From contig CANRVM010000042.1 of the NCBI GenBank assembly GCA_947643295.1, forward strand, positions 1-9,270: a stretch of 9,270 nt of DNA, read 5' to 3'. The notes beneath the pieces were generated by a model, which saw nothing but the letters and a program-made list of their open reading frames with translations, had not been told where the DNA came from and searched no databases. The position numbers and the translations under genes are program-made. Positions 1-9,270 of the stretch are shown here, piece by piece. The number at the start of each line of letters is the position of its first letter. The first letter of the stretch is position 1. This DNA comes from an uncultured Mycoplasmatota bacterium (GTDB lineage: Bacteria > Bacillota_I > Bacilli_A > RF39 > UBA660).

Positions 1-1
1 A

Positions 2-1336
2 GGAGGACTTGGAGAAATTATCGAGTATATTAAAAATTTTAAAATTACGGAGGAGGATATCGATTATTTAAGAAGACAAGGATGTTTCAGTGAAGATTTT
101 CTAGCTTATTTAAAGGATTTAAAGTTTACAGGTGATATCTATGCGATGCCAGATGGAACTGCCGCTTTTCCAAATGAACCAATTATTACGGTACGTGCTA
201 AAATGATAGAGGCACAGATTATTGAAACAGCTCTACTTGCCAACTTCAATCATGGAAGCTTAGTAACTACGAAAACGAAAAGAATCACAAATGAAGCAGG
301 AGAGATTCCTGTATGGGAGTTTGGGGCAAGACGTGCTAGAGGAGAAGATTCTGCGATTGAAGCTAGTCGTCACGCTTACATTGGTGGTGCTTATGGAACT
401 AGTAACATTTATGCAGGAAGAAAATACGGATTACCAATTTTTGGAACGATGGCTCATTCTTTTATTGAAAAATTTGATTCGGAATATGAAGCATTTAAAG
501 CTTATGCACAAAGCTTCCCAGAAAACAGTGTATTCTTAGTAGATACTTATGATGTTTTGCGAAGTGGTATACCAAATGCGATTCGAGTAAGTAAAGAAAT
601 ACTAGAGCCAAAAGGACAAAGGTTAAAGGGAATTCGAATTGATTCAGGAGATTTAGTTTATTTAACAAAAGCAGCAAAACAGATGCTAGTGGAAGCTGGC
701 TATTCCGATGTGAAAATCTGTGTATCAAATGGACTGGATGAATATGCTATTTCAAATTTAATCAAACAGGGAGCTGTTATTGATTCGATTGGACTTGGAG
801 ATAATATTACAGCAAGTAAAGAAAGAGTAAATGGTGTTTATAAGCTAGTTGCTATTGAAAAAGATGGCGAAATTATTCCGAAAATAAAGGTAAGTGAGGA
901 TGCCGTTAAAACCATTAATCCAGGAGTAAAAAAAGTATATCGTTTTTATGACTTTGATAGTGGAGAAGTATTAGGAGATGTTATTGCAAGAAATACCGAA
1001 AAAATACCGAAGGATCAATATACCCTTGTATCTGATCAAAATCCATGGAAGAAAACAACAATCACAGATTACCGAGTAAGAGAATTACAAGTACCAATTT
1101 TCTTAAATGGAGAATTTGTTTATCAAGAACCAACCTTAGAAGAAAAAAAGACTTATTGTCAAAAAGAATTTGAAACCTTAACAGATCGTATTATCGATAT
1201 TGAAAATCCACATACTTATTATGTTGATTTATCAGAAGAGGAAAGAGCTTTAAAAGAATATATGTTATACGATGTGATGAAAAAATCAGCTGCTACTGCT
1301 ATTGAAAATTCAGGATATCAAAAAATAAAAAAGTAG
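2..1336 (+). CDS. pncB: Nicotinate phosphoribosyltransferase, 5'-partial
   Basis: This enzyme joins nicotinate and PRPP, with ATP hydrolysis, to make NaMN, the entry step of NAD salvage (Preiss-Handler pathway) in the cytoplasm. The frame is open from base 2, well before the first internal ATG at 146, so the true start lies outside the window. 444 codons are present against about 490 for full-length Bacillus-type PncB, so roughly 45 N-terminal residues are missing. Family motifs are plain: MPDGTAAFPNEP (146-181), the EFGARRARG block with the following SRHAYIGGAYGTSN (about 317-408), the GIRIDSGDL strand (about 630-656) and SNGLDEY with IGLGDNI further on. It ends in TAG, 98 bp before nadE. 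It heads the visible NAD cluster, so the main operon promoter, and any NrtR operator there, probably lie upstream of the window. I see no frameshift or lost motif in the visible part. Confidence 0.96.
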   Translation, partial: GGLGEIIEYIKNFKITEEDIDYLRRQGCFSEDFLAYLKDLKFTGDIYAMPDGTAAFPNEPIITVRAKMIEAQIIETALLANFNHGSLVTTKTKRITNEAGEIPVWEFGARRARGEDSAIEASRHAYIGGAYGTSNIYAGRKYGLPIFGTMAHSFIEKFDSEYEAFKAYAQSFPENSVFLVDTYDVLRSGIPNAIRVSKEILEPKGQRLKGIRIDSGDLVYLTKAAKQMLVEAGYSDVKICVSNGLDEYAISNLIKQGAVIDSIGLGDNITASKERVNGVYKLVAIEKDGEIIPKIKVSEDAVKTINPGVKKVYRFYDFDSGEVLGDVIARNTEKIPKDQYTLVSDQNPWKKTTITDYRVRELQVPIFLNGEFVYQEPTLEEKKTYCQKEFETLTDRIIDIENPHTYYVDLSEEERALKEYMLYDVMKKSAATAIENSGYQKIKK

Positions 1337-1365
1337 TCAAAAATAAAAATAAGAAATAAGTAAAA

Positions 1366-1412
1366 GAAGTAGAGTTGGGGTATACTAAAAATAATTCCCT
1401 TTTCTCTACTTC
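1366..1412. repeat. Long-loop inverted repeat in the pncB-nadE gap
   Basis: A perfect 9-bp inverted repeat, GAAGTAGAG at 1366-1374 and CTCTACTTC at 1404-1412, encloses a 29-nt loop. The loop contains GGGG (1377-1380) and CCC (1397-1399), which could extend the structure inward past an asymmetric bulge. It also contains TATACT (1381-1386), which resembles a -10 box, but I see no convincing -35 for it. No T-run follows on the + strand, so it is not a standard intrinsic terminator. It may be an mRNA stem protecting or tuning the nadE leader, or a protein-binding dyad. The nadE ribosome binding site starts about 10 nt downstream. Confidence 0.5.
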
Positions 1413-1434
1413 ATATTAAAAAAGGAGAAGTTAT

Positions 1435-2193
1435 ATGAAAGATTTTGATGCAAAAAAAGAAACCAATAAGGTAATTGAATTTATTAAAAAATATTATAAA
1501 GAAAATCATTTAGGTGGTGCTATATTAGGAATCAGTGGAGGAAAGGATTCTGCCATTGTTGCCGCTTTAATGACAAAAGCGTTAGGATGTGAAAATGTAA
1601 TAGGAGTAACATTGCCATGTCATTCTAAAAAAGAAGACAGAAATGATGCTAAATTAGTTAGCGATTTTTATGGATTTGAACTATTAAATTTTAATCTTAC
1701 GGGAGTTTTCGAACAGTTTAAGGAAGAAGTAAGACATTTGGGGGAATTCACAGAAGAAGAAGTAAAAAATAGTGATATTAATCTAAAGCCAAGACTTAGA
1801 ATGGCAACTGTTTACTATTTAGCAGCTCTATATAGTGCTTTAAAGAAAAAAACGTATTTAGTGGCAGGAACTTCTAATAAATGTGAACTTTTTGTAGGAT
1901 ACTTTACGAAGGGAGGAGACTCTGTTCATGATATTTCACCAATCGCAGATTTTACAGTCGAAGAAGTAATAAAAATTGGTGAATACTTAAATGTTCCAGA
2001 ACAAGTTCTATATAAAAAACCAAGTGATGGTTTATCAAACCAAACCGATGAAGAAAAGTTAGGAGTCAGTTACAAGGACATCACAACCTATATGGAAGAT
2101 AAAACAAAAGTAAATAAAGAAGTAGCTGAAAGAATAGAAAAATTACACAAAAATAGTTTACATAAATTTCATATTCCAATTTATGAAAGATAG
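1435..2193 (+). CDS. nadE: NH3-dependent NAD+ synthetase
   Basis: NadE converts nicotinate adenine dinucleotide (NaAD) to NAD, using ATP and ammonia, the last step of NAD synthesis. The 252-aa protein is a single synthetase domain with no N-terminal glutaminase domain, so it should take free ammonia. The N-type ATP pyrophosphatase P-loop SGGKDS is at residues 34-39. Further family blocks are LKPRLRMATVYYLAAL, VAGTSNKCELFVGYFTKGGD with the following ISPIADF, and KKPSDGL. The family loop usually read as KYGDGG appears here as KGGDSVHD, a small variation. The ATG at 1435 has AGGAG at 1423-1427 with a 7-nt spacer. The TAG stop abuts the nadD region directly, so the two genes are almost certainly co-transcribed and probably translationally coupled. 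Confidence 0.96.
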   Translation: MKDFDAKKETNKVIEFIKKYYKENHLGGAILGISGGKDSAIVAALMTKALGCENVIGVTLPCHSKKEDRNDAKLVSDFYGFELLNFNLTGVFEQFKEEVRHLGEFTEEEVKNSDINLKPRLRMATVYYLAALYSALKKKTYLVAGTSNKCELFVGYFTKGGDSVHDISPIADFTVEEVIKIGEYLNVPEQVLYKKPSDGLSNQTDEEKLGVSYKDITTYMEDKTKVNKEVAERIEKLHKNSLHKFHIPIYER

Positions 2194-2197
2194 GTGA
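2192..2197 (+). promoter_or_regulatory. RBS that supports a TTG start for nadD
   Basis: AGGTGA matches the 3' half of the consensus AGGAGGTGA and overlaps the nadE stop codon. It lies 5 nt before TTG 2203. It cannot serve the GTG at 2194, which lies inside it. It therefore favours TTG 2203 as the nadD start. Confidence 0.6.
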
Positions 2198-2202
2198 TTG
2201 AA

Positions 2203-2778
2203 TTGAAGATAGGTATCTTTGGAGGAAGTTTTAATCCTCCTCATAATATGCATAAAAAAATAGGATTAGAATTAATCGAAAAAGGATATCTGGATAAGGT
2301 AATTTATGTTCCAACAGGAGATAAGTATCAGAAAAAAGAATTAATTGATGCAACAAAAAGGTATGATATGATTAAACTTATGGTAGAAGATAGTGAGAAT
2401 TTATCCGTATCCGATTATGAAATAAAAAATAAATTAACCTATACTTATCAAACGTTATCTTATTTTAACAATTTGTATCCAAAAGATGAAATATATTTTA
2501 TCTGTGGAAGTGACAATTTATTAGAATTTGATACTTGGAATAATTGTCATTATATTTTAGATAAATATAAAATACTAGTGATTCAGCGAGGAGAAGAGCG
2601 ACAAGGAGAAATGGTAGATAAGTATCCAAATGTAATAGAGGCGGATATTACAATGTCTAACTTATCTTCTACTAAGATTAGAAATTTAATAAAGGAAAAC
2701 AAATATGAGAAGTTAGGTACCAAATTAGAGCTATCTGTGATAGAATATATCAAAAAGGAAAATCTATACAGGAAGTGA
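2203..2778 (+). CDS. nadD: Nicotinate-nucleotide adenylyltransferase
   Basis: NadD transfers AMP from ATP to NaMN, giving NaAD, the substrate of NadE. I choose TTG 2203 (191 aa): the product then starts MKIGIFGGSFNPPH, as NadD proteins normally do, and AGGTGA sits 5 nt upstream. The alternative GTG 2194 would add three residues (MIE, before a Leu in place of the initiator Met) with no good ribosome binding site. Seen motifs are GGSFNPPH near the N-terminus, CGSDNLLEFDTW in the middle (the family's G[AS]D...W region) and LSSTKIRNLI near the C-terminus, the characteristic SSTxIR signature. One oddity is that the nucleotidyltransferase HxGH motif reads HNMH at residues 14-17, with Met for the near-invariant Gly; both His are kept. 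The stop overlaps the ribosome binding site of the next gene. Confidence 0.92.
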   Translation: MKIGIFGGSFNPPHNMHKKIGLELIEKGYLDKVIYVPTGDKYQKKELIDATKRYDMIKLMVEDSENLSVSDYEIKNKLTYTYQTLSYFNNLYPKDEIYFICGSDNLLEFDTWNNCHYILDKYKILVIQRGEERQGEMVDKYPNVIEADITMSNLSSTKIRNLIKENKYEKLGTKLELSVIEYIKKENLYRK

Positions 2779-2782
2779 TTTT

Positions 2783-3370
2783 ATGGATACTGGAATAAAA
2801 GATATTGAGATTAATCCAGATTGGTTTTATCATAGATTGAAGGAAGAAGATTTCGATAAAGTTATTTTAAGTGGTGGATTGTATTCAAAAAGAAAACTCG
2901 GAAGGAAGGAAAATAAGAATCTTTCTTTAAATGGTAAGGATTTTATTTCCTTATCGAAACGAATTGCTATCAAAGAGGGTACCAGTACTTCTGATTATTC
3001 CTATTCCTATTACATTGATTGGCATTTTGGATACGTTATCGAGGGAGTAGATGCGATTAAGACTAGGTATATAAAATCCTATCAATCATTTCATACCTTC
3101 TTAAAGAATTTACCCGTTAATCGGCGATATTCTCTTTTTTACGATGAATATCAAGTAAGAAATGAAATTTCTCTAGACAAAATAAAAGGTATAAAGATTC
3201 CTGATTTAAAAAGTTACTTTGTAGACTTAGAATATAGTGAAATGGTGCTAGAAAGTTTATTAGAAAAGATGGATTTGGTAGGTAGAGCTTTCCCATTTAT
3301 TGATGTAGAAGAGGGAAAATTAATTGAGAAAGAAAAAATAAAAGAATATATAAAAAAAGGTAACGGATAA
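2783..3370 (+). CDS. Unrecognised 195-aa protein, possible ADP-ribosyltransferase-like fold
   Basis: I do not recognise this gene by name. The ATG at 2783 follows AGGAAGTGA (2770-2778), which overlaps the nadD stop, so it is translated within the NAD operon. The protein is soluble, with no signal peptide or membrane segment. Its layout resembles ADP-ribosyltransferase folds: WFYHRL with His17, then a helix leading to ILSGGLYS (28-35), a strand FISLSKR (54-60), a strand FGYVIEG, and a late block DEYQVRNEISLDKIKGIKIP (121-140) with Glu122 or Glu128 as a possible catalytic acid. This H / S-T-S-like / E order is what such enzymes (for example the DarT, KptA and toxin families) show, but I have no alignment, so this is inference. 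A KEKIKEYIKKG-type charged helix ends the protein. Alternatives are a family-specific NAD-operon accessory protein or an unrelated fold. Confidence 0.9.
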   Translation: MDTGIKDIEINPDWFYHRLKEEDFDKVILSGGLYSKRKLGRKENKNLSLNGKDFISLSKRIAIKEGTSTSDYSYSYYIDWHFGYVIEGVDAIKTRYIKSYQSFHTFLKNLPVNRRYSLFYDEYQVRNEISLDKIKGIKIPDLKSYFVDLEYSEMVLESLLEKMDLVGRAFPFIDVEEGKLIEKEKIKEYIKKGNG

Positions 3371-3399
3371 AAAGAATAGACATATGGAGGAGTATTTGT

Positions 3400-4200
3400 A
3401 TGATATGGATAAAGGATGAAAGTAAGAAAAAACTAAAAAATATCACTCTTGATAATTATTATGTAGTAGCGGATTTTGACCGAATTTTATCTACTAGAAA
3501 TAGTAAAACAACCTTTTCTTTATTTGGAGAGAGTGGATTCTACGGAGAAGAGTATAGTAAAGAAAGAAGAAAACTATATGAGCATTATAGACCTTTAGAG
3601 TTAGATACAAAGATACCAGATTCCTTAAAATATGAAATAATGGAAGAGTGGCAGAGGAAAAGCTATCAACTAATGCTAAAATATAGAGTAAGAGAAAGCG
3701 ATATTAAAAAAATTCTTTCTACAACGGATTTATTAGAATTAAGAGATGGTGCTATTGAATTTATTGATAGATTAAATGAAAATAATATCCCTTTGATAAT
3801 TAATTCTGCAGGTTGTGGTAATTTCATTATAGAATTATTGAAATTAAATAATTGTTGTTCTGATAATATTTATCTTCATAGTAATTTATTTACTTTTAGG
3901 GAGGATATTATGATAGATAGTATAGAGAAAATCGTACATAGTATGAGTAAATATGATATCAATCTTCCAACCGATTTTTTTAATAGATTGCTAGATAAAA
4001 AATACAGTATTGTAATAGGGGACCAATTAACGGACTTAGAAATGGCTAAGAACTTACCTAAGAAAGAAATAATTTCCTTTGGCTTTTTGGAAGAAAAGGT
4101 AGAAGAATTAGAACCTTTCTTTCAAAGAGATTATGGTGTTATTTTAAAGGAGATGGAAGATTTTACTCCCATTCATAAAGTTTTAAGATTAAAAAAATAA
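3400..4200 (+). CDS. HAD-superfamily 5'-nucleotidase, cN-III/UMPH-1-like
   Basis: The 266-aa protein reads as a HAD phosphohydrolase closest to cytosolic 5'-nucleotidase III (pyrimidine 5'-nucleotidase, UMPH-1). Motif I is DFDRILS (Asp25 nucleophile, Asp27 general acid), where cN-III proteins have DFDxTLS, so Ile replaces the usual Thr. The helical cap follows, then LRDGAIEFIDRL and IPLIINSAGCG (motif II Ser136), very like the LREG...FSAG region of cN-III. NIYLHSNLFTF is the cN-III post-motif strand, and IGDQLTDLEMA supplies motif IV (Asp208, Asp212). The start at ATG 3400 has GGAGGAG (3386-3392) with a 7-nt spacer. It would release inorganic phosphate from a nucleoside monophosphate. Human cN-III and related enzymes are reported to act on NaMN and NMN, so a role in trimming pyridine mononucleotides is a reasonable inference here. 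Confidence 0.85.
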   Translation: MIWIKDESKKKLKNITLDNYYVVADFDRILSTRNSKTTFSLFGESGFYGEEYSKERRKLYEHYRPLELDTKIPDSLKYEIMEEWQRKSYQLMLKYRVRESDIKKILSTTDLLELRDGAIEFIDRLNENNIPLIINSAGCGNFIIELLKLNNCCSDNIYLHSNLFTFREDIMIDSIEKIVHSMSKYDINLPTDFFNRLLDKKYSIVIGDQLTDLEMAKNLPKKEIISFGFLEEKVEELEPFFQRDYGVILKEMEDFTPIHKVLRLKK

Positions 4201-4201
4201 G

Positions 4202-4206
4202 AGGAG
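4202..4206 (+). promoter_or_regulatory. RBS that sets the pncC start
   Basis: AGGAG lies 8 nt before ATG 4215 and only 2 nt before the GTG at 4209. The spacing argues for ATG 4215. Confidence 0.7.
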
Positions 4207-4214
4207 AGGTGTGT

Positions 4215-4679
4215 ATGAGGAAAATAGTAGAAAAATTAATTAAGCAAAATAAAACCATCGCAACGATGGAGTCTTGCACTGGGGGAGGAGTTTCTAATGC
4301 CATTACCAATATAGAAGGTGCTAGTAGTGTGTTAAAATTTAGTGCAGTAACGTATTCGAATGAATTTAAAATAAAAATGGGTGTTTCTTCTGAACTTATT
4401 GATAAATATAGTGTTTACTCAGAAGAGGTAGCAAAAGAAATGAGCAAAAATATTAGCCTCTTTACTTCTAGTCATTATGGAATAGGAATCACTGGTAAAT
4501 TAAATAGGGTAGATATAAATAATTTATATGGAGAAGATAATATGGTATTTATTAGTATCTATGATAGAGAATCTAATACATTTTATGATGATAAAATAAA
4601 AGCTTTAAAAACATCTAGAAAGGATAATAAAGAATTAGTTATCGAAAAAATCGTAGATATGCTAAATTCTATTTTATAG
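4215..4679 (+). CDS. pncC: Nicotinamide-nucleotide amidase, stand-alone CinA C-terminal domain
   Basis: PncC hydrolyses NMN to NaMN and ammonia, recycling the NMN released by NAD-dependent DNA ligase and feeding NadD. The 154-aa protein is the CinA C-terminal domain alone, without the N-terminal MoaB-like domain. ESCTGG (residues 19-24) and the block from GASSVLKF to SAVTYSNEFK (35-52) are the family core. The Ser20 nucleophile and Tyr47/Lys52 of the YSNxxK motif are kept. The usual ITGIAGPGG loop is not: here ITGKLN (92-97) runs directly into a shorter loop ending at YGED. This loop lines the active site in the family, so specificity or activity could differ. ATG 4215 is preferred over GTG 4209 because of the upstream AGGAG. 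The gap to the preceding nucleotidase gene is 14 bp. Confidence 0.88.
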   Translation: MRKIVEKLIKQNKTIATMESCTGGGVSNAITNIEGASSVLKFSAVTYSNEFKIKMGVSSELIDKYSVYSEEVAKEMSKNISLFTSSHYGIGITGKLNRVDINNLYGEDNMVFISIYDRESNTFYDDKIKALKTSRKDNKELVIEKIVDMLNSIL

Positions 4680-4686
4680 GAATTAA

Positions 4687-6207
4687 ATGAAACAAGTACA
4701 GGCGATTAATAGAATTTTGGAAAAATATCCTTACTTAAATAAAAGAAGTATTGGTTTTCCAAGTGTTGGAAAAAGAAAAGATAATAAGCATTTTAGTAGT
4801 GTAGTAGATGATGTAAAAGATGGATTTTCTCTTTATAATGATATGATGAATCATTATTATAATCCTATGAGTGATTTAAACTTTACAAGTGGTAATCCTC
4901 TTTCTTATAAGATATTTCCTCCTACTAAAAAGGCTTTAAAAAAAGCAATTTTAAAAGAAAACTTATATTCATACCCTTATTCAGAAGGAGATAATCAAGT
5001 AAGATTAGAGTTGTTAAAATATATTGAACAGGAAGGTATTTATAATAATAATCCCTATGAATATGATGATGTTGATGAAAAAGGTTTATCTATCCACAAT
5101 TTAACATTTACTGTTTCAACCTCTCATGCTTTTGATTTGATTTTAGATATTATTGCAAGAGAAAATGATGTTATTTTAATGACTGGTCCCAATTATGGAT
5201 TATTCAGTTTTAAACCAGAGAGAAAAAATATCAATGTAAAAATTATCAACTTAGATAAGGAAGATAATTATTTAGTAAATCCAGATAAGTTAGATAAGAG
5301 AATAAAACAGATAAATAATCGATTAAAAAGGGAATATAAAGATAGTAACTATATTCCTAAAGTAGTGGCTTTTGTAAATGGTAATCCTTGTAATCCAACA
5401 GGTAAAGTAATGGGAAAAAGAGAATTCTCTATTTTACAAGGGATTGGCGAGGTATGTATTTCGCATGATTTATTTATCATTGATGATTTGATATATCGGG
5501 ATATTACTTATGATAGGGAAAATATAGCTTTACCTATGGCATCCATAGAAGGATTCTTTAAAAATACAATTTCTTTGTTTGGTCTTTCTAAGTCTTATGG
5601 ATTAGCAAGTCTAAGAGCAGGCTTCGTTGTTGCAGATGAAGTTATTATTAGAGAAGTTATTAATCGAATATTTCAACAAATGGATGCTGTTCCTTCTATT
5701 ATAGGGGATGCTTTAAAAGGAGCTTTTAATGTAAGCAAGAATCATAATAAAGAATATGAAAACTATTTTAAAAAATTAAATAATGAATACATCTATCGAT
5801 ATAGTTTATTAAAATCCTTTGTAATGGGAATGGAACAAGTAGAAGAAAAATATAGGAAAAGAATTATAAAGGATATACAAAAATATAATAAAAGAGCTCT
5901 TAAAATAGTGGAACATGGTATTGATGGTATTAATATGATAAAATGGTTAGAACCAGAAGCAGGTTTCTTTATCATACTTGATTTTACTTCTTTAAAATAT
6001 AAGAAATACGATAATATTATAATTCATACCGAAGAAGATTTATTAAGAATTATCTATAAAAATATACAAGTAAGGTTTTTAATTGGAAAGTCGATAGCGT
6101 GGCCAAATAAAGATCAACTAATTGGTAGATTCACTTATGCAAAAAAAGAGGAAGAAATTATTCATGCATTTTATTTGTTAAATGAAATAATTAGCAAATT
6201 AAAGTAA
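4687..6207 (+). CDS. Class I/II PLP-dependent aminotransferase, substrate unknown
   Basis: This 506-aa protein is a fold-type-I PLP enzyme. Visible hallmarks are LYSYPYSEGDNQVRLELL (cofactor/substrate region), TSHAFDLILD, GPNYG, the NPCNPTG turn (Asn236), DDLIYRD with Asp267 and Tyr270 (pyridine N and O3' contacts), SKSYGLASLRAG with Lys302 as the Schiff-base lysine and Arg310 for the PLP phosphate, and GRFTY near the C-terminus carrying the likely carboxylate-binding Arg. Typical class I/II enzymes have about 390-430 residues. The extra length lies in an N-terminal extension of about 60 residues and in a charged helical insert after the PLP lysine. The start ATG 4687 has AGGA at 4678-4681 overlapping the pncC stop. 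The substrate cannot be read from the sequence. Its place between pncC and nrtR suggests a link to NAD or aspartate metabolism, but that is inference. Confidence 0.9.
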   Translation: MKQVQAINRILEKYPYLNKRSIGFPSVGKRKDNKHFSSVVDDVKDGFSLYNDMMNHYYNPMSDLNFTSGNPLSYKIFPPTKKALKKAILKENLYSYPYSEGDNQVRLELLKYIEQEGIYNNNPYEYDDVDEKGLSIHNLTFTVSTSHAFDLILDIIARENDVILMTGPNYGLFSFKPERKNINVKIINLDKEDNYLVNPDKLDKRIKQINNRLKREYKDSNYIPKVVAFVNGNPCNPTGKVMGKREFSILQGIGEVCISHDLFIIDDLIYRDITYDRENIALPMASIEGFFKNTISLFGLSKSYGLASLRAGFVVADEVIIREVINRIFQQMDAVPSIIGDALKGAFNVSKNHNKEYENYFKKLNNEYIYRYSLLKSFVMGMEQVEEKYRKRIIKDIQKYNKRALKIVEHGIDGINMIKWLEPEAGFFIILDFTSLKYKKYDNIIIHTEEDLLRIIYKNIQVRFLIGKSIAWPNKDQLIGRFTYAKKEEEIIHAFYLLNEIISKLK

Positions 6208-6208
6208 A

Positions 6209-6230
6209 TCTATGTTATAATCAAGATAGA
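6209..6230. promoter_or_regulatory. Extended -10 promoter with small dyad, upstream of nrtR
   Basis: TGTTATAAT (6213-6221) is a perfect extended -10 element (TGnTATAAT). The best -35 candidate, TTAGCA at 6191-6196, is 19 bp away and weak, which an extended -10 tolerates. A short inverted repeat, TCTAT (6209-6213) and ATAGA (6226-6230) with a 12-nt spacer, straddles the -10. It could be an operator, but its half-sites are only 5 bp. This promoter would drive nrtR and nadK separately from the upstream genes. Confidence 0.6.
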
Positions 6231-6246
6231 AATAAGAGGTGTTAAT

Positions 6247-7086
6247 ATGAGTCAATATAAAAGCGAAGAGGAATTTTTAAAAGATTATGATTCTAGTAAA
6301 TTTGAAAAACTATCCATGACGACGGATATTTTAATGATAAGTGTATCTTCTGTTAAGCAAAATAATTATCGTAAAACAAGTAAGAAAATGATGAGTATTC
6401 TACTCGTAAAAAGAAAAGATTATCCTTATAAAGATATGTGGTGCTTGCCAGGCGGTTTTTTAAATCCTTTAACAGAAACCTTAGATGAATGTGCAAAAAG
6501 AGTACTAGAGAAAGAAACCAATTTAAAGGATATTTATCTAGAACAACTTTTTACTTTTAGTAGTCTAGATAGAGACCCAAGAATGAGAGTAGTTTCTACT
6601 TCTTATATTGCATTAGTTGATAAAAATGAATTGAAAGAGGATTTAATGGAGAATGCTTCATGGTTTGATATTACTTTTTTAGAGGAAAAGGATAATATGG
6701 TAGATATTATCTTAGATAATGGATTAGAAGAGATTAAATTCTGTATTAAAAAGGCATTAAAGGAAAAAACAACGGATCGATATCAATTTAGTACGTTAAA
6801 AAATGATAAATTAGCTTTTGATCATCCAATTGTTATCTTATCTGGAATGGAGAGATTAAAAAATAAAATTAATTATACCGATATTGTCTTTAATATGATG
6901 CCAGAATATTTTACTTTAGGAGATTTGCAACAAGTATATGAAGTCATTTTAAATAAAAAGTTGTTAGATCCAGCATTTCGTAGAATAATTGCAAACAAAG
7001 TAGAAAAAACAGAAAAAGTAAAAAAAGGAGAGGGCCATCGACCTAGTGCTTTGTTTAGATATAGAGGTAGAGTAGATGAAGAATAA
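6247..7086 (+). CDS. nrtR: NrtR-type Nudix-related repressor of NAD metabolism
   Basis: NrtR proteins bind operators of NAD genes and release or bind DNA in response to ADP-ribose or related metabolites. The 279-aa protein has the two-domain layout: an N-terminal Nudix-like domain (about 20-170) and a C-terminal winged helix (about 215-275). The winged helix reads PEYFTLGDLQQVYEVIL, then LDPAFRRI and GHRPSALFRYRGR, which is the NrtR signature. The Nudix box at residues 70-93 is degenerate. It has six rather than five residues between Gly70 and Glu77, and the catalytic REUxEE reads RVLEKE, so two metal-binding Glu become Val86 and Lys89. It is therefore probably a sensor and not a hydrolase, as reported for characterised NrtR proteins. 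GAGGTG (6236-6241) precedes ATG 6247 by 5 nt. Its end overlaps nadK by 11 bp. Confidence 0.92.
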   Translation: MSQYKSEEEFLKDYDSSKFEKLSMTTDILMISVSSVKQNNYRKTSKKMMSILLVKRKDYPYKDMWCLPGGFLNPLTETLDECAKRVLEKETNLKDIYLEQLFTFSSLDRDPRMRVVSTSYIALVDKNELKEDLMENASWFDITFLEEKDNMVDIILDNGLEEIKFCIKKALKEKTTDRYQFSTLKNDKLAFDHPIVILSGMERLKNKINYTDIVFNMMPEYFTLGDLQQVYEVILNKKLLDPAFRRIIANKVEKTEKVKKGEGHRPSALFRYRGRVDEE

Positions 7087-7873
7087 GATAAAGTTTGTAA
7101 AACTATTCCCTAATAATAATAAAAAATCGAAAGAACAAGCTCATACCTTACAAGAAAAATTAGAAAAGAATGGATTTGTGATAGATAATAATAAATTTTC
7201 CTTAGCCATAGCAATCGGTGGAGATGGTTCCTTTATTCGAATGGTAAAGGATTGTAATTTCGATGATGATATTTATTATTTAGGAGTCAATACGGGAACA
7301 CTTGGGTTTGCTCAAGAAATTTATCCAGATGAAGTGGATACTTTTTTAGAGAGACTAAAAAATGAAGATTACAAGATTGAAGAAATTGGTGTAGAAGAAA
7401 CAAAGGTAAAAACCAAAGAAGGAGTATTAGAATTTAACTCTCTAAATGAAATCTTAGTACGTGATAAAGAATTAAATACCATCAAATTAACGATTATGAT
7501 AGACGAAAAGAGATTAGAAAACTTTGTAGGAGATGGGATTTTAGTTTCTACTTCTTTTGGATCTAGCGCTTATAATTTAAGTTTTGGAGGTAGCATAGTT
7601 TATAGTGATTTACATACAATGCAGATAACTCCTGTAGCTCCATTAAATAATAAGAGTTATAAGGTTTTAAAAAACTCTGTTGTTATACCGGAAAGTAGAA
7701 TCGTTTCTCTGATTCCAAAAGAACTATCGAATCAACTAATAATTACTGTGGATGGAGAAAATAAATCATACAATGATGTACAAAAAATCGAAATATCAGT
7801 AAAGAAAAAAATAAAATTTGTAAGAATGACAGAGTATGATTATACCAAAAAAATTCATGAGAAATTTTTATGA
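7076..7873 (+). CDS. nadK: NAD kinase
   Basis: NadK phosphorylates NAD at the 2'-OH of the adenosine ribose to give NADP. The 265-aa protein shows GGDGS (Asp50 in residues 48-52), GVNTGTLGFAQE, the NEILVRD block (NE motif), VGDGILVSTSFGSSAY with FGGSIV following (the family's GDGxxxxTPTGSTAY...GG region) and ITPVAPLNNKS. All these are standard for bacterial NadK of usual length. ATG 7076 lies inside the 3' end of nrtR, 11 bp before its stop is complete, with GAGGT at 7064-7068 and a 7-nt spacer. Translation is therefore likely coupled to nrtR, tying repressor and NADP-forming enzyme levels together. The gene ends in TGA, whose last base begins the terminator stem. Confidence 0.95.
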   Translation: MKNKIKFVKLFPNNNKKSKEQAHTLQEKLEKNGFVIDNNKFSLAIAIGGDGSFIRMVKDCNFDDDIYYLGVNTGTLGFAQEIYPDEVDTFLERLKNEDYKIEEIGVEETKVKTKEGVLEFNSLNEILVRDKELNTIKLTIMIDEKRLENFVGDGILVSTSFGSSAYNLSFGGSIVYSDLHTMQITPVAPLNNKSYKVLKNSVVIPESRIVSLIPKELSNQLIITVDGENKSYNDVQKIEISVKKKIKFVRMTEYDYTKKIHEKFL

Positions 7874-7897
7874 AAGTATATAAAACTATACTTTTTT
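7873..7897 (+). terminator. Intrinsic terminator closing the NAD cluster
   Basis: AAAGTATA (7873-7880) and TATACTTT (7887-7894) form a perfect 8-bp stem with a 6-nt loop TAAAAC, followed by a T-run to 7897. The stem is AT-rich, as expected at this base composition. It starts on the last base of the nadK stop. Confidence 0.8.
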
Positions 7898-7907
7898 CAT
7901 GTTTGAT

Positions 7908-7936
7908 TTGATTTATTTGATTAATTATGGTAGGAT
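7908..7936 (+). promoter_or_regulatory. Promoter of the downstream two-gene unit
   Basis: TTGATT (7908-7913) and TAGGAT (7931-7936) are spaced by 17 bp, and TGG at 7928-7930 makes an extended -10. Neither hexamer is perfect. Transcription would start near 7943, which is compatible with ATG 7963 but not with ATG 7927. Confidence 0.5.
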
Positions 7937-7950
7937 ATAGCTTGCAAAAA

Positions 7951-7955
7951 AGGAG
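7951..7955 (+). promoter_or_regulatory. RBS that sets the start at 7963
   Basis: AGGAG lies 7 nt before ATG 7963, in an A-rich leader. The in-frame ATG at 7927 has no ribosome binding site and overlaps the -10 region. Confidence 0.75.
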
Positions 7956-7962
7956 AGAGAGT

Positions 7963-8688
7963 ATGGATAATAATCAGAATAGGGATAATGAAAAGAAAAG
8001 AATTAAATACATTTGTTATGTAGGGTTAGGGTACTTGTTAGGATGGAGCTTATTTAGAATCACAAATCTTAATGAGAATGATACTTCTAAATCAGCACAA
8101 GAATATTTAGAAAGTTTAGAGAGCAATCATGATTTAAATGAAAGGTTAGATAATTTAATTGAAGGATTTACCATGAAAGAAGGAAGTACTCGTTTAGGAG
8201 ATGATTTTGAAGAATATTTAGGAATTTCATTAAATCCTTATAAAAAACTGAATTTAAATCTGATAGCCAATGAATTAGATACCGTAAAGAGTCAATTAGA
8301 TCATACATCAGGTAGTATCTTTGCTTTTGAAACATGGCTAAGTGATGTTTCTTTACAAGAAGCAAAGGAAATTGTTTCAAACAATATAATAAGTGATAAT
8401 GATTGGAAATTTAATTGTTCTATTTCTTTTAATTATGGAAAAGATTATGGATGGGTAGTTGCTGATGATTCTTATCAAATTTTTGATGAAATGTTAAATG
8501 AATTTGTATCTTCCTACGAATATTTAAATAATCGTTCTACTAATTTGAGTGAGAATGCAAAAGAGTACGAAAATATTATGAACGGTGTTTTAAAAAGTAG
8601 TATTTGTGATATTGTATTAGATGAAAATAGTCATCATGTAAGAATAGAAATTCCAAATGATGTAAAAGAATTGGTAAAGAAAAAATAA
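7963..8688 (+). CDS. Uncharacterised membrane-anchored protein
   Basis: I do not recognise this 241-aa protein. A charged N-terminus (residues 1-15, ending KKRIK) is followed by one hydrophobic segment at about 16-31 (YICYVGLGYLLGWSLF), consistent with a single N-in anchor and the remaining 210 residues outside the membrane. There is no lipobox and no clear cleavage site. The outer part is acidic and mostly helical up to about residue 125. After that comes a stretch with strand-like pieces (WKFNCSISFNYG, YGWVVADDSYQIF) and a final helical region rich in Asn and Glu. No catalytic motif stands out. The start at ATG 7963 is chosen for the AGGAG 7 nt upstream; ATG 7927 would add 12 residues. It follows the NAD-cluster terminator with its own promoter, so a functional link to NAD is not implied. 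Confidence 0.8.
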   Translation: MDNNQNRDNEKKRIKYICYVGLGYLLGWSLFRITNLNENDTSKSAQEYLESLESNHDLNERLDNLIEGFTMKEGSTRLGDDFEEYLGISLNPYKKLNLNLIANELDTVKSQLDHTSGSIFAFETWLSDVSLQEAKEIVSNNIISDNDWKFNCSISFNYGKDYGWVVADDSYQIFDEMLNEFVSSYEYLNNRSTNLSENAKEYENIMNGVLKSSICDIVLDENSHHVRIEIPNDVKELVKKK

Positions 8689-8752
8689 TAGTATTTATGA
8701 GTGAATAGGAAAACGGTATTCTAATAAAGAAAATTTTTAAGGAGGAATTTTT

Positions 8753-9270
8753 ATGAATCAAGAGAAATCAATAGAAAAGTATATTAGGCATATAGAAACT
8801 TTAATGAAAAATTTAGGGAATGTGAAAGCATTTAAGTTAAATGACGAAGAAAAATTATATATTTATGAAGATGATATAGAGAGAATAAACCATTGGTATT
8901 ATTATAATAGTTTACTTGAATGTTTATTAACAAAAGAAAAAGAAAAAGGAACTATTGTGATTACAGATCAATTTGAATTCGTATCAGATAGTTTATTATC
9001 TTCTCCACTAAATGCACAAGAAAAAATGGCTGTATTATTCTATCTAATCATTCGTAATATTGATTTAGGAGGCATCTTAAAAGAAGATAAGGTTAGGGGA
9101 TTAATCAAGTATAATAAGTTTTTGGAATATGGACTTGATCAAGAAACAGTAAATGACCTATTCCTTAGTGGTGAAATAGAGTGTTTGCTTTATAGTGATG
9201 ACTCCACTTTAAATGAAGAGGCATTACATTTGAAAAATATGGTTAAGAAATGCATTGTGTTATTAGATAA
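8753..9270 (+). CDS. Uncharacterised soluble protein, 3'-partial
   Basis: This reading frame is open from ATG 8753 to the window end (172 codons, no stop), so its C-terminus is missing. A strong ribosome binding site, AAGGAGG at 8739-8745, lies 7 nt before the start. The protein looks soluble, acidic and helix-rich (IEKYIRHIETLMKNL at residues 7-21), with a hydrophobic helix AVLFYLIIRNIDLGG in the middle that is more likely core than membrane-spanning. I recognise no family. It lies 64 bp after the membrane-anchored protein with no terminator between, so the two may be co-transcribed. The gap holds only a weak GAATA/TATTC inverted repeat (8703-8707 and 8717-8721). Confidence 0.85.
   Translation, partial: MNQEKSIEKYIRHIETLMKNLGNVKAFKLNDEEKLYIYEDDIERINHWYYYNSLLECLLTKEKEKGTIVITDQFEFVSDSLLSSPLNAQEKMAVLFYLIIRNIDLGGILKEDKVRGLIKYNKFLEYGLDQETVNDLFLSGEIECLLYSDDSTLNEEALHLKNMVKKCIVLLD

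Follow-up and report, generated by a model that had tools for sequence, protein, structure and literature searches.

Most of the known bacterial ADP-ribosyltransferases (ARTs) are toxins, effectors of defence or enzymes of RNA repair, and ADP-ribosylation has been poorly mapped in the everyday metabolism of bacteria. Two active-site motifs have been reported, H-Y-E in ARTD and R-S-E in ARTC, and DarT is reported to need R51 and E160 (PMC9967889, PMC11543638). According to PMC9503650, NrtR-type regulators sense ADP-ribose, and binding of ADP-ribose to the NrtR repressor is reported to promote transcription of nicotinamide adenine dinucleotide (NAD) genes (PMC3680494). Here we describe a gene, X, that encodes a predicted ART-fold protein within a NAD biosynthesis operon of an uncultured Mycoplasmatota bacterium; it lies on a 9,270-nucleotide stretch of contig CANRVM010000042.1 (GCA_947643295.1, positions 1 to 9,270 of the forward strand), called the window below. 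X most likely belongs to an undescribed family that is an optional gene of the NrtR-type NAD operon in some Bacilli, with His17-Ser56-Glu122 as its candidate triad. Judged by title or the start of the abstract, none of the literature matches listed describes an ART in a NAD operon of Bacilli, which is not proof of absence.

Predicted fold and candidate active site

The first-pass annotation of this DNA had proposed an ART fold for X from motifs that are all present in its open reading frame (ORF) at the residues named: Y16-H17, ILSGGLYS, FISLSK (S56, S58), FGYVIEG and DEYQVRNEISLDKIKGI (E122, E128). The structure predicted for X is indeed an ART fold. Two models were compared with solved structures, one of X and one of a paralogue, and the 50 entries shown for each read as ART or ART-like. 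Agreement was stronger for the paralogue model (Z up to 9.1), and the solved structures closest to the X and paralogue models include DarT.

Residue counts were taken from a profile alignment of 36 family members and 60 remote homologues. Glu122 is E in 36/36 members and in 59/59 remote proteins with a letter at that column, and together with D121 and Q124 it is invariant across the family. At the His17 column, 31 of the 33 members with a letter have H (R in two; three gaps), as do 50/52 of the remote set. Ser56 is S in 34/36 members (C in two) and in 59/60 remote proteins. Two further positions are conserved: Tyr74 is Y in all 36 members and F or Y in 60/60 remote proteins, and Arg115 is R in 34/36 members and in 57/59 remote proteins with a letter there. 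The annotation had also pointed to Ser58 and Glu128 as catalytic candidates, and these two are variable (S in 14/36 and E in 17/36, respectively).

In the predicted structure, H17, S56 and E122 follow one another on strands in the order of the ART motif, as had been proposed. X has the hallmark of the ART superfamily, a His or Arg on the first strand and a Glu on a late strand, in H17 and E122. At the first position, where ARTC has Arg, X has His17, and at the second, where ARTD has Tyr, X has Ser56 on a strand, with the invariant Tyr74 further on. The motif of X therefore reads as H-S-E, a putative mixture of those of ARTD and ARTC, in which Tyr74 may also stand for the Tyr. No different fold was predicted, and His17 and one of the two Glu positions were conserved; the annotation is thus supported, right on the fold and mostly right on the triad.

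The sequence link of X to DarT and KptA is only suggestive, because unrelated families score comparably. When alignment A2, which covers the superfamily, was compared by hhalign with 18 DarT proteins, the p values were 0.0041 over the YH region and 0.027 over the E122 region, where E122 fell on the invariant DarT Glu. With alignments A1, A2 and A6, the p values were 0.039, 0.0041 and 0.067 for DarT and 0.037, 0.017 and 0.014 for KptA, the A1 and A6 matches lying outside the KptA ART core. The best values from 11 unrelated operon families, used as a control, were 0.066, 0.033 and 0.032. DarT leads in one of the three alignments, and the match of E122 to the DarT Glu recurs in two, weakly; none of these p values would by itself establish homology.

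X is a real gene, as shown by its protein family and by selection in its relatives. A protein database search at E 0.01 or better gave 36 proteins counting X, none named or with a Pfam domain, and A2 as the query brought in 60 further proteins, which have no Pfam domain and, where named, are called hypothetical protein. The ratio of nonsynonymous to synonymous substitution rates (dN/dS) was 0.15-0.34 across 16 locus pairs with protein identity of at least 73%, and 0.27-0.54 across the 20 printed pairs that were more distant. Loci recur among the pairs, which are non-independent, and for the window copy there was no DNA relative close enough for this test. The X copies that persist in relatives look to be under purifying selection.

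No convincing match was found in Pfam, in NCBIfam for X alone, or in PHROGs or PADLOC for X and five relatives, and a PDB sequence search gave nothing significant (best E 0.45 with X, 0.12 with the profile). A Pfam match to Cas9_REC (E 7.5e-4, 18.8 bits against a cut-off of 25), found in 2/36 members, was dismissed as chance because the confident model of X is an alpha/beta ART fold. A match to TIGR01383 (E 0.032) was far below the NCBIfam cut-off.

The operon slot of X

The window has a G+C content of 28% and holds a single NAD operon, with the gene order given in Table 1; the earlier placing of X inside such an operon was correct. From nadE through nadK the intergenic gaps are at most 39 bases, and X starts 4 bases after nadD, so one shared transcript from nadE to nadK that includes X is likely. 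If this is true, a NAD-using enzyme would be produced together with NAD-making enzymes in these bacteria. In the window, the phosphatase gene separates X from pncC.

The same setting recurs across genomes. A genome scan gave 16 loci, all in metagenome-assembled genomes titled Bacilli, Bacillales, Bacillota, Tenericutes or Candidatus Onthousia. With L055 from the family sample added, 15 loci (L001-L014 and L055) carry a strong X, defined by E <1e-50. Upstream of X stands nadD in 11 of these 15, with a glycohydrolase gene intervening in L002, L003 and L004. Among the nadD-X loci whose contig continues, pncC lies directly 3' of X in 10/10. Where the contig reaches, NrtR is next, sometimes one gene later (it was not seen in L004 and L013), and nadK is usually beyond. 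In L003 (11088-11837), L005 and L055, a gene of 236-249 amino acids with no Pfam match over the cut-off stands between pncC and NrtR.

Table 1. Features of the window and candidate active-site codons of X
Feature	Position	Strand	Basis or remark
pncB, nicotinate phosphoribosyltransferase (5' end outside window)	2..1336	+	NF006695, 528 bits, over cut-off
nadE, NAD synthase	1435..2193	+	TIGR00552 over cut-off
nadD, nicotinate-nucleotide adenylyltransferase	2194..2778	+	TIGR00482 over cut-off
X, 195-amino-acid predicted ART-fold protein	2783..3370	+	ATG start; ORF, relatives search, structure model
His17 codon	2831..2833	+	predicted strand 15-18; candidate catalytic His
Ser56 codon	2948..2950	+	predicted strand 54-59
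Tyr74 codon	3002..3004	+	conserved aromatic, predicted helix 73-78
Arg115 codon	3125..3127	+	conserved Arg upstream of Glu strand
Glu122 codon	3146..3148	+	opens predicted strand 122-126; candidate catalytic Glu
UMPH-1-like HAD phosphatase (5'-nucleotidase family)	3400..4200	+	PF05822, 152 bits, over cut-off
pncC/CinA C-terminal domain, nicotinamide mononucleotide deamidase family	4209..4679	+	PF02464; TIGR00199 over cut-off
class I/II aminotransferase	4687..6207	+	PF00155 over cut-off
NrtR-type regulator (Nudix domain + NrtR winged helix)	6247..7086	+	PF00293, PF21906 over cut-off
nadK, NAD kinase	7076..7873	+	PF01513, PF20143 over cut-off

In L002 and L003 the gene that separates nadD from X matches PF03747 (ADP-ribosylglycohydrolase), and L004 carries a copy 99% identical to that of L003. 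The L003 and L004 copies have neither the TDDT motif nor one Asp of GGDTDT, both of which we take to be glycohydrolase motifs, and look degenerate; the L002 copy has both, and X and the hydrolase look intact there. A tblastn search found no hydrolase remnant in L005, L006, L007, L055 or L102. Among loci showing both nadD and pncC, the glycohydrolase was present in 2/10 with X and 7/34 without X (Fisher p 1.0), and in 8/60 NrtR regions it was present with X absent from all eight. We rejected an ART and hydrolase (writer-eraser) pair as a general explanation because operons lacking X have the glycohydrolase just as often and two of its three copies beside X (L003, L004) look degenerate. A glycohydrolase homologue is an optional gene between nadD and pncC in the X-less NAD operons L099, L101, L111, L115, L125, L132, L137 and L144; in L144 it stands before pncC, with nadD not identified in view.

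The pncB-nadE gap of the window contains an inverted repeat (GAAGTAGAG/CTCTACTTC, 1366-1412) with arms 29 bases apart, and as RNA this gap folds at -17.6 kcal/mol (z -2.78). The repeat was not accepted as an NrtR operator because a search by 8-base arm found both arms together in none of 14 related loci. An Rfam scan of the window up to E 1 gave no match. Downstream of nadK, the ORF at 7927-8688 has Pfam matches that are all below the cut-off (Pfam scan), and the ORF at 8753-9268, which runs off the end of the window, gave no match in an NCBIfam scan.

Distribution and possible roles

X is probably an active NAD+-using ART, whatever its role; both the catalysis and the NAD+ substrate we infer. 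It would bind NAD+, Glu122 would orient or activate the nicotinamide ribose, nicotinamide would leave, and ADP-ribose would pass to a cellular acceptor, which could be a protein, a nucleic acid or a small molecule. Co-production with nadD, pncC and nadK would mean that X is made alongside the enzymes supplying its substrate.

Several results weigh against this reading. The structure matches of X all have Z <8, a range that the tool calls inconclusive taken alone. The p values from profile-profile comparison are weak, DarT (0.067) ranking behind the unrelated nadK (0.032) with A6. By X identity, the 11 loci with the slot represent about three lineages (L002-L005; L006-L009 with L013 and L014; L055), not 11 independent cases, and the window is a fourth. 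X is optional, since a strong copy was found in 5/243 genomes of one family sample and any match at 1e-12 in 16/243. NrtR at 1e-60 was found in 69 of these 243 genomes, and an intact strong X in 3/69 (G003, G005 and G312). Decayed copies occur too: G307 has a relic, G707 has an X with an internal deletion, and the X of G010 (L014) is broken near its start. The X of L167 is missing its middle, including the E122 region; this copy and that of L014 are included in the 7/35 genomes of the genus of G005 that match X at 1e-20.

In an order sample, X matched at 1e-3 in 33/288 genomes and strongly in four. NrtR regions were retrieved from 60 of the 69 NrtR genomes, some of them shortened by contig ends (G003 and G005 were already covered and seven were left out). 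X was present in one region (L102, the genome of L055), and another (L097, G307) had the relic between nadD and pncC. When the ORFs of the 60 regions were compared with the X profile at 1e-3 for hidden copies, only L102 matched, and an unfiltered search with 20 selected unknown proteins from these regions gave a best E of 0.012. In an NrtR tree of 69 rows, all ten X rows were in one starred clade of 30, with five changes, at least three of them forced by starred branches. The tree may reflect a small number of gains with several losses, or else insertion into the same slot more than once.

X points to the existence, in uncultured Bacilli, of a large ART superfamily that lacks annotation. Tandem runs of two to four paralogues were found in L021, L056 and L064, some ORFs having two domain matches. 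In L029 (847-2718), L032 (739-2304), L042 (100-1707) and L043 (1042-2622), a remote X domain is C-terminal to a half with an HD-hydrolase-like HDxGR pattern; L029, the one protein of this type scanned, had no Pfam match. In a paralogue subfamily (L024, L026, L027, L030 and L035), an upstream gene of about 235-253 amino acids is conserved in all five loci, and a HAD hydrolase and a transketolase N-terminal domain are present in 4/5, Pfam-named on L027 only.

An ADP-ribose-based loop is attractive because NrtR-type regulators are reported to sense this ligand. X made from the operon would spend NAD+ to ADP-ribosylate a NAD-pathway enzyme or another housekeeping target, and a hydrolase, for example the L002 glycohydrolase, would free ADP-ribose, which as the NrtR ligand would raise NAD-operon output. 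We consider this loop possible but rather unlikely: the window regulator scored 147.9 bits against the NCBIfam NtrR equivalog, below the cut-off of 400, and most sampled NrtR genomes have no X. X could instead be a NAD+ glycohydrolase, splitting NAD+ into nicotinamide and free ADP-ribose and so relieving NrtR repression as a feedback on NAD turnover. This would suit the shared operon of X and an NrtR-type regulator, the reported effect of ADP-ribose on NrtR (PMC3680494), and the X that stands outside a NAD operon in L001 (9953-11781), with genes for a Nudix protein and a DUF488-N3 protein after it. It is unlikely, however: NrtR does not need X, because just 3/69 NrtR genomes have it intact; X is present in G001 and G008, where NrtR gave no match at E 1e-60; and strong X occurs in L011 and L012, where blastp within the available locus DNA matched none of the remaining operon proteins.

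X could also be a DarT-like conflict protein (a toxin or an effector of phage defence) that became lodged in NAD operons, near a substrate supply and genes handling ADP-ribose. DarT among the closest solved folds, the patchy occurrence with repeated gain or loss, the decayed copies and the tandem arrays of paralogues fit such an origin. We find it doubtful, since the loci viewed have no antitoxin candidate at a constant position, PADLOC matched neither X nor the five relatives, and searches of viral contigs, plasmids and phage records, within their sensitivity, turned up no relative. Purifying selection also speaks against it, as does a slot that recurs with a housekeeping gene on either side. 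An ART fold without catalysis, serving to sense NAD(H) or a nucleotide or to partner PncC or NadD, would agree with the 1-12 bases between X and pncC in the eight loci measured and with L010 (pncC-X), where pncC is the sole operon-set gene adjoining X; it is quite improbable, because the catalytic-type residues H, S and E are among the most conserved, remote homologues included. The rarity and occasional decay of X would also be expected of a passenger with no selected function, a reading that the dN/dS of the 16 close pairs and the invariant residues of the 36 members make extremely improbable. If X is the active ART that we favour, an ART-fold gene with an NrtR-type regulator in one NAD operon would offer a defined setting for asking whether ADP-ribosylation regulates bacterial NAD supply.

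Comparison with known ADP-ribosylation systems

The first-pass annotation had likened X to DarT and KptA. The likeness held for the fold, and by sequence X is neither of the two. DarT is the DNA ADP-ribosyltransferase of the DarTG toxin-antitoxin system (PF14487), a domain that X does not match up to E 1 and that is not listed for the 36 members. The Glu of DarT is within AEVL in alignment A3, whereas X has DEYQV, and X is placed in a NAD operon. A scan that covered part of the neighbours and loci found no DarG (macrodomain) or NADAR antitoxin beside X. DarT is rare in these groups (0/149 in the class, 2/295 in the phylum).

Tpt1/KptA is a transfer RNA 2'-phosphotransferase (PF01885) whose N-terminal half binds RNA. 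X has no such extra half; its 195 residues hold an aligned ART core of about 9-178 with an invariant Glu122, and neither X nor the 36 members match PF01885.

DraT and DraG carry out reversible ADP-ribosylation. L002 is similar in that an ART-fold gene adjoins an intact-looking DraG-family hydrolase; it differs in that X has no DraT-family Pfam match and the pairing of ART and hydrolase is not enriched.

The ADP-ribosylglycohydrolase (ARG)/Nudix-regulator systems of PMC9503650 resemble the present loci in that a single operon carries an ADP-ribosylglycohydrolase together with a Nudix regulator of NrtR-like type and, in some cases, a 5'-nucleotidase. They were selected for having no coupled ART (PMC9503650), whereas the X operon combines an ART-fold gene with genes of the NAD pathway, and the presence of X does not depend on the glycohydrolase. 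The best description of X is a new ART family in its own right.
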